Shown: positions 74 through 324 of the stretch, in pieces
Layout of the letters: each line of letters opens with the position of its first letter
Numbering within the stretch: the stretch's first letter is position 1
DNA from: Deltaproteobacteria bacterium
GTDB lineage: Bacteria; Desulfobacterota; UBA8473
DNA: 11,241 nucleotides
Direction: 5' to 3'
Assembly (NCBI GenBank): GCA_030621455.1
Contig: JAUXHQ010000027.1
Span: forward strand, 1-11,241
The notes under the pieces: model-generated
What the model saw: the letters and a program-made list of their open reading frames with translations, nothing else
What the model was told of the DNA's origin: nothing
Databases searched by the model: none
Position numbers and translations under genes: made by a program

Positions 74-155
74 ACCCCGCAGGGGTGAAACATACCAGCC
101 CAGGGCAATGCCCTGGGAAAGAGATAAAAGATGAATTTTAGCCCTGTAAGGGCGT
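74..155 (+). repeat. Left REP-like arm with three palindromes
   Basis: This arm contains hairpin A at 74-86 (ACCCC/GGGGT stem, 3-nt loop), palindrome B at 99-117 (9-bp arms, one central base) and hairpin C at 141-153 (GCCCT/AGGGC stem, 3-nt loop). It matches the right arm in reverse complement with no length change. The GC-rich stems stand out in AT-rich surroundings. Confidence 0.8.
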
Positions 156-175
156 GACATCACAAGGGTTTGATT

Positions 176-229
176 ATGTCTCAATCTTTGTCAAAAATTG
201 AATACGACGAAAAATATCTATGGGATTGA
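176..229 (+). pseudogene. 17-codon remnant of an IS200-like (RAYT) transposase
   Basis: The ORF reads MSQSLSKIEYDEKYLWD then stops. From memory of the family, many REP-associated IS200-like transposases of about 150 residues begin MSQSL(S/A)KIY and end (I/V)EYDERY(L/V)WD. This ORF looks like those two ends fused in frame, with the whole catalytic domain missing, including the HUH motif and catalytic tyrosine. An AAGGG ribosome-binding-like sequence at 163-167 precedes the ATG by 8 nt, as expected of a retained gene start. It lies exactly between the two inverted REP arms, where a RAYT gene would sit. It cannot encode an active transposase. The alternative, a chance 17-codon ORF, is hard to reconcile with matches to both ends. 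Confidence 0.6.
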
Positions 230-242
230 CGATGAATATGTA

Positions 243-324
243 ACGCCCTTACAGGGCTAATAATTAGGGAACTTTCAAAACCCAGGGCAATGCCCTGGGC
301 TGGTATGTTAAGCCCTTTCAGGGC
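243..324 (-). repeat. Right REP-like arm, inverted copy
   Basis: This is the reverse-complement counterpart of 74-155: hairpin C at 245-257, palindrome B at 281-299 and hairpin A at 312-324. Positions 243-260 are an exact 18-bp inverted copy of 138-155. In hairpin A the stem sequence differs from the left arm at two base pairs, and both changes keep pairing. Confidence 0.8.

Follow-up and report, generated by a model that had tools for sequence, protein, structure and literature searches.

Near one end of an 11,241-nt stretch of deltaproteobacterial DNA (hereafter the window), about 250 bases (74–324) hold two inverted arms of three hairpins each that enclose a single short ORF. What is this unit, and where did its 17 codons come from? 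The initial annotation had read it as a minimal REP element in which the two ends of a RAYT-like transposase gene were fused by an internal deletion. Our analysis indicates that the unit very probably derives, by internal deletion, from a small transposon with a single gene. This parent would have been a 150-codon Y1/HUH transposase gene (IS200-like TnpA with the motif Y---Q--HH) lying between two inverted three-hairpin arms. One or more deletions would have removed approximately codons 9–141, and with them the HUH and tyrosine motifs; as judged by comparison with relatives, the start, stop, leader, trailer and both arms were kept at their native spacing.

Architecture of the unit and origin of its ORF

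The features of the unit are listed in Table 1. By inverted-repeat search, the outer arm block at 75–117 pairs with 281–323 (43 nt, 84% complementary) and the inner block at 138–160 pairs with 238–260 (23 nt, 96% complementary). The identical internal spacing reported for the arms was reproduced, and their length was corrected from 82 bp to about 86 nt, in which a 20-nt unmatched spacer separates the two blocks on both sides. The palindrome P2, CCCAGGGCAATGCCCTGGG, occurs as two exact copies (99–117 and 281–299). As single-stranded DNA, the unit folded at −70.7 kcal/mol versus −27.75 kcal/mol (sd 3.67) for 200 dinucleotide-preserving shuffles of 74–324 (z −11.7). A comparison of Rfam with the window gave no match at gathering scores. 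The loops of both window copies of P2 read AAT on the same strand; in most aligned relatives the arms are mirror images, with AAC read from each side.

Table 1 Features of the 74–324 unit in window coordinates
Feature	Position	Strand	Basis
P1, left-arm outer palindrome (ACCCC-GCA-GGGGT)	74..86	+	read from sequence
P2, left-arm middle palindrome (CCCAGGGC-AAT-GCCCTGGG), with ACATACCAG just before	99..117	+	inverted-repeat search, family alignment
P3, left-arm inner palindrome (GCCCTGTAAGGGC), then foot GTGACAT	141..153	+	arm pattern, family alignment
AAGGG, weak putative ribosome-binding-like site, 7 nt 5' of ATG	164..168	+	read from sequence
Fused 17-codon ORF MSQSLSKIEYDEKYLWD, probable remnant of a 150-codon Y1 (IS200-like) transposase gene	176..229	+	homologues, profile scores
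N-terminal remnant, residues 1–8 (MSQSLSKI)	176..199	+	28.8 bits vs family profile
C-terminal remnant, residues 142–150 (EYDEKYLWD) + stop	200..229	+	35.6 bits vs family profile
Putative deletion junction; ~133 codons (~399 bp) absent, in frame	197..200	+	inferred from 150-aa family length
P3', right-arm inner palindrome, starting 15 nt past the stop	245..257	-	inverted-repeat search, arm pattern
P2', right-arm middle palindrome	281..299	-	inverted-repeat search, arm pattern
P1', right-arm outer palindrome (GCCCTTTCAGGGC)	312..324	-	read from sequence; aligned with family

The 17-codon ORF was found between the arms as annotated, and its halves were compared with the ends of related proteins. 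A homologue search with a 125-aa piece from G010, a genome of the same phylum, returned 296 proteins, 120 of which were listed; 103 of these 120 are 140–165 aa long. Among the listed homologues, the N-termini are mostly M[A/P/S]QSLSK[I/V] or near it, with MAQSLSKI (26), MPQSLSKV (11) and MSQSLSKI (8), and the C-termini are mostly [V/I][E/D]YDE[R/K]YLWD or near it, with VEYDEKYLWD (7) and IEYDEKYLWD (3). In three 150-aa IS200-like Y1 proteins (P0064, P0095 and P0102), the N-terminus is MSQSLSKI and the C-terminus EYDEKYLWD, identical to the two halves of the window ORF. The search of IS200-like proteins that had been proposed for these termini was thus positive, and the likeness of the halves to typical transposase N- and C-termini, as given in the initial annotation, proved correct.

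A family profile was built from the 91 homologues of exactly 150 aa, picked among the 120 listed. MSQSLSKI scored 28.8 bits at profile positions 1–8 and EYDEKYLWD 35.6 bits at positions 142–150; the next best scores in the window were 9.8 bits for the N-terminal part, in a comparison set of 15,846 stop-free eight-residue stretches from its six frames, and 4.8 bits for the C-terminal part. When extended by one residue, IEYDEKYLWD scored 38.1 bits, whereas none of 100 mononucleotide shuffles scored above 16.9. Because the scores of both halves lie far above the next-best stretches in the window, a chance match was excluded. The last codon of the N-terminal remnant could derive from either side of the junction. 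Lys-Ile stands just before the C-terminal piece in 3 of the 91 homologues, and P0064 and P0102 have Lys-Ile at both ends, so that the window junction could possibly hold a 6-bp homology. No relative was found in the viral contigs searched.

Full-length genes and shortened units between the same arms

When one genome per species was scanned, 293 relatives were found and 80 loci were kept; 49 of the 80 were checked for P2 and P3, three of them carrying a broken gene (L075, L089 and L090). With a strict pattern, both arms were found at 15 of the 49 loci, one arm at 15 and none at 19; diverged arms were seen by eye at some of the one-arm or no-arm loci, and others may truly lack arms. At the two-arm loci the order is P1, a sequence of about ACATACCAG, P2, approximately 23 nt, P3, the foot, the gene, and then the inverted repeat of this series. 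The P2–P3 distance ranges over 18–32 nt, that from P3 to the start codon over 18–32 nt and that from the stop codon to P3 over 6–19 nt. The corresponding distances in the window (23 nt in both arms, 22 nt and 15 nt) all fall inside these ranges. In G010, the arms, at 79% identity on either side, enclose a full-length, frame-shifted gene. The gene family itself is scattered over many phyla.

Conservation of the hairpins was analysed in an alignment of 32 arms including the two of the window. The hairpins are 97.9% paired, and sliding the pairing by 1–3 bases lowered this to 21–62%. Double changes occupy 30 cells, where shuffling gave a mean of 7.2; in this control the kinship among the arms remains. 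The P1 helix is 93.8% paired with both-side changes in four of its five pairs, and the P2 helix is 99.6% paired with such changes in two of eight pairs. P3 is 99.4% paired and showed no covariation in the 32 arms, as no pair was changed on both sides. Since relatives carry the full gene between the same arms, approximately codons 9–141 appear to be gone in the window with the rest in place. The in-frame internal deletion proposed in the initial annotation, with start, stop and both arms kept, was supported by these full-length genes.

With a covariance model of the arm (R1), arms were found in 18 of the 395 genomes searched in the window's phylum, and 2 to 149 matches each were obtained in 18 genomes chosen for carrying the gene or arms. 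Neighbouring arms were counted in 13 gene-bearing genomes using 285 arms, namely all 135 of one set and the best 150 of 281. Among these listed arms, and at distances of up to 700 nt, 87 pairs have the left-right inverted order versus 15 in the opposite order and nine in the same direction. Fifteen of the 87 inverted pairs listed are compatible with a gene (453–606 nt apart); the other 72 are too close for one (<450 nt), 50 of them at 1–36 nt. In G403, a Phycisphaerae assembly, all 14 units fetched have 8–16 nt between the arms, as delimited by the cut used. In other genomes, inverted pairs occur in several copies, an organisation like that of REPINs, and the window's genome shows one pair only.

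We inspected 71 units, of which 15 were too short between the arms to score and 56 were scored against the family profile. As a control, each was shuffled 100 times by mononucleotides, except for the long units L208 and L245, which had no shuffles. Ten of the 56 exceeded all of their shuffles, where about half a unit is expected by chance: the window unit and nine in four other genomes. In G401, an N-terminal piece is kept by L200 (residues 2–24) and L201 (residues 2–23). In G397, a Candidatus Thiosymbion assembly, L205 keeps residues 113–150, and L209, L210, L258 and L259 keep the last 5–7 residues of the transposase. L248 of G408 keeps a C-terminal piece, and L247 is alike with a weaker score (1 of 100 shuffles as high). 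In L251 of G410, residues 30–53 run on in frame into the C-terminal end ELLVVLEKYGVAYDEKYLWD, and the N-terminal end is lost; by its sequence we regard it as a second in-frame internal deletion. Two further units were too short for the profile: by DNA match, the leader and the first three codons remain in L260 and also, with one base changed, in L203. With such a series of deletions elsewhere, it was fair to describe the window unit as a snapshot of deletion towards a non-autonomous unit.

The remaining 46 of the 56 scored units, including the two without shuffles, did not exceed all shuffles; hence not every mini-unit needs a deletion origin. A transposase-remnant origin was accordingly not claimed for the mini-units of G048 and G083 (82–128 nt between the arms) or for the 88-nt family of G409, none of which exceeded their shuffles. 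In the last genome, a Lentisphaeria assembly, seven listed arm pairs (L238–L244) have 87–88 nt between the arms. Two arrangements were also observed: L258, L259, L209 and L210 stand in a row at near-regular spacing, as if amplified in tandem (G397:C1:1918519-1919835 and L073), and an N-terminus mini-unit identical to L201 lies at L085 552–879, about 1 kb from a full-length gene on the same contig.

A DNA search of the 395 phylum genomes, with at most two candidates scored per genome, turned up no further instance of the fused ORF; the matches elsewhere are confined to a single side of the junction. Of the nine siblings in which a remnant was scored, none retains the original start codon together with the original stop codon. 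Given this, and because an in-frame fusion has a chance of 1 in 3, the ORF is most likely an incidental product of the deletion; for the same chance, the in-frame state carries little weight.

Junctions, host genome and alternative explanations

In three genomes, cut points could be located by reference to a gene copy that the genome itself carries. Nine units were compared in this way, and the results are estimates because the copies differ by some percent. The junction tie was 0 in L209, L258, L259 and L205, 1 in L200 and 2 in L260, L203 and L251, where the ties of L203 and L200 include a mismatched base and the true homology is smaller; in L201 the split is ambiguous, with a tie of up to 3 by reading. 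In the siblings that have a same-genome relative, only about 0–3 bases match at the junction, so that the window deletion was probably also a joining that needed little homology. The same approximately 0–3 bp give no support to a repeat-mediated deletion of the Haloquadratum type.

The host draft was searched for a parent. No transposase of this subfamily was detected in the draft by Pfam Y1_Tnp, by the 125-aa homologue or by an 18-row family alignment. The Pfam search gave three genes (L001–L003), which we assigned to other subfamilies because neither the homologue nor the alignment matched them. The arm covariance model found no arm in the draft beyond the one pair of the window. A full-length copy between the same arms, which the initial annotation had proposed to look for in the host genome, was therefore not found. 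That annotation had also taken a genome lacking any related transposase and any other copy of the arms to speak against its reading, and in form the draft is such a genome, no transposase of the subfamily and no further arm having been found in it. We judged the evidence from other genomes to outweigh this, because the draft is 78% complete and in 292 contigs. With no parent found in the draft, the position of the junction is approximate, the loss may have taken one step or more, and any mobility of this copy would be hypothetical. The only same-genus genome searched (G001) yielded one weak arm match (C132:3337-3425, 47.5 bits), and no transposase of the subfamily was found in it with the 18-row alignment.

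A second mini element with inverted ends was observed in the window at 870–1150, between prepilin-type genes. Its ends pair 878–892 with 1130–1144 and 900–921 with 1092–1113. It has 52 matches in the host genome including itself, many of them short, and one of them (C105:7129-7414) is 82% identical over most of the length. The element belongs to a dispersed family of MITE-like kind and bears no visible resemblance to the 74–324 unit.

By analogy with the biology of IS200/IS605 elements and REPINs, the arms would be the substrate of the transposase, and a two-arm unit could move in trans given an intact family enzyme. The window copy is probably now a stranded relic, no family enzyme having been found in the draft. 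One alternative is that the shortening occurred elsewhere and that the element then arrived by horizontal transfer or moved in trans. No related gene or further arm was found in the draft, the family is spread over many phyla and mini-units are multi-copy in other genomes, all of which would suit an arrival; against it, the draft is incomplete (78%), and no near-identical unit was found in the 395 phylum genomes with at most two candidates scored in each. We consider such an arrival a serious possibility, with a probability somewhat short of even.

It is also conceivable that the transposase itself made the unit by a failed single-strand excision or rejoining, in which a nick at the inner foot of P3 was joined to a second site. 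Eight distinct junctions were considered: those of the window, L251, L259, L205, the L209 group, L260/L203, L200 and L201. By our reading, one break lies no more than about 2 nt from the inner P3 foot (ACAT or ATGT) in five of these eight placeable junctions, and this mode of origin would also suit the closely spaced arms of the G403 units. On the other hand, the breakpoints of the 74–324 unit fall within the gene, away from the foot, a model that requires the arms misses breakpoints within them, so that the pile-up may be a detection effect, and L205 and L209 may share one event. For these reasons we regard the proposal as unlikely. It is similarly doubtful that subclass 1.2 TnpA genes form a lineage of transposons, bounded by long inverted arms of three hairpins, which repeatedly gives birth to REPIN-like mini elements by internal deletion, with the P3 foot favoured since the transposase nicks there and thereby makes its own parasites. 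If it did, which we offer only tentatively, the visible series would run from the intact gene, through units with one or both gene ends left, to bare arms 8–16 nt apart in many copies.

The 17 codons could instead be a functional small-peptide gene between two REP-like hairpin arms, as they have a start, a stop and AAGGG 7 nt upstream. Both halves, however, resemble the two termini of a 150-aa transposase much more closely than chance would allow, the distances from gene to hairpins are those of the transposase gene, and the search of the phylum genomes described above gave no second copy; the transposase homology refutes such an origin, and a peptide gene is very improbable. Strong palindromes beside a gene can act as terminators. 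The strong palindromes of the unit would suit an ordinary transcription terminator or BIME whose match to transposase ends is an accident, but this reading can practically be dismissed, given the profile scores of the two halves against the next-best stretches of the whole window and the fact that genes of the family in other phyla are flanked by the same arms.

Classification and comparison with known systems

As the window retains only the ends of the gene, the Pfam and NCBIfam models were run on homologues. P0064, P0102, P0095 and P0002 all passed Pfam PF01797 (Y1_Tnp) with 74.8–86.8 bits (cut-off 23), and three of these four passed NCBIfam NF033573 (IS200/IS605 transposase; cut-off 55), P0095 reaching 54. 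Among the sequences of solved structures, the family profile reached only the ISHp608 transposase and 2vhg, another transposase. The motif Y---Q--HH is present in 90 of the 91 150-aa homologues, with Y, Q and HH at residues 115, 119 and 122–123, and the remaining one has YQRH. The HUH motif is HVH in 65, HIH in 24, HLH in one and NIH in one, and WQ is present in all 91.

According to the classification of Quentin et al. 2018 (PMC6006769), as far as that source was drawn on here, class 2 (RAYT/TnpA-REP) proteins carry Y---NP and canonical REPs have a GT[AG]G foot. The family has Y---Q--HH in place of the Y---NP motif of RAYT/TnpA-REP proteins, and the consensus of the 32 arms, which has ACATACCAG ahead of P2 and GTGACAT following P3, shows no conserved GT[AG]G foot. 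The same source describes subclass 1.2 by Y---Q--HH, HUH with V/I, a WQ motif and a median length of 148, and the family agrees with it in these motifs and in its length of about 148–150 aa. Judged by its motifs, the transposase thus fits TnpA subclass 1.2 and not a true RAYT. In the part of that account used here, no REP is listed for subclass 1.2, which is described as generally without typical IS200 end structures and as hosted mostly by Cyanobacteria and Bacteroidetes. Unlike this description, the present family has conserved arms and mini-units, and occurs in delta, PVC and gamma lineages. At least one three-hairpin arm was found at 30 of the 49 loci checked, and since end structures are described as only "generally" lacking, the arms are a difference from the subclass rather than a bar to membership. 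The labels RAYT and REP in the initial annotation thus suit the 74–324 unit as analogies rather than as statements of membership.

The unit has ends in common with a full-length element and has lost the gene, as a MITE would; a MITE would in addition be moved in trans, which for this unit is conjectural. The PATEs of Haloquadratum walsbyi, as reported in the part of PMC3119063 used here, are transposase-free and retain the palindromes close to the ends of IS605-type transposons; core deletion apparently gave rise to some of them, and some transposon remnants keep short C-terminal pieces of the transposase. Their core deletions ran between direct repeats of 19–22 bp, and they have no inverted terminal repeats. 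The window unit is otherwise similar, but its arms are inverted repeats of each other. It further differs from PATEs, so far as that report describes them, in its long three-hairpin arms, in the approximately 0–3 bp of the sibling junctions, in its bacterial hosts and in the single 150-aa TnpA.

REPINs with RAYTs (PMC3116915, as far as consulted) are alike in that two inverted repeats bearing hairpins make up a small non-autonomous element associated with a Y1 transposase. They differ in the GT[AG]G foot and Y---NP motif given in PMC6006769, against three hairpins per arm and Y---Q--HH here. In the relevant passage of Bertels and Rainey 2011 (PMC3116915), the evolution of REPINs is called "a further unknown", with IS200-like flanks as one possible source. 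The TIRYT genes and TIRtrons described in 2013 (PMC3733652), in the part of that source used here, are likewise Y1 genes flanked by inverted repeats able to form small families; unlike the present arms, their repeats mostly have GGGGWSAS motifs, and 20 of the 26 TIRYT proteins are placed in subclass 2.1 by PMC6006769, again unlike here.

In the open-licence literature searched, largely by titles and abstracts, we found no description of transposase-end remnants in mini-elements derived from RAYTs or from subclass 1.2. Judging from the portions of these sources used, core-deleted IS605 derivatives were already known from Haloquadratum (PMC3119063) and a derivation of REPINs had already been proposed (PMC3116915). 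Within the literature searched, the arms, their link to this TnpA group and the bacterial deletion series appear to be new. These results suggested how tiny passenger elements can arise from a jumping gene by loss of its core, with an intermediate stage of mini-element birth seen directly in several unrelated bacteria. In addition, conserved ends are provided for a TnpA group described as generally lacking them, and its mobility thereby becomes testable.
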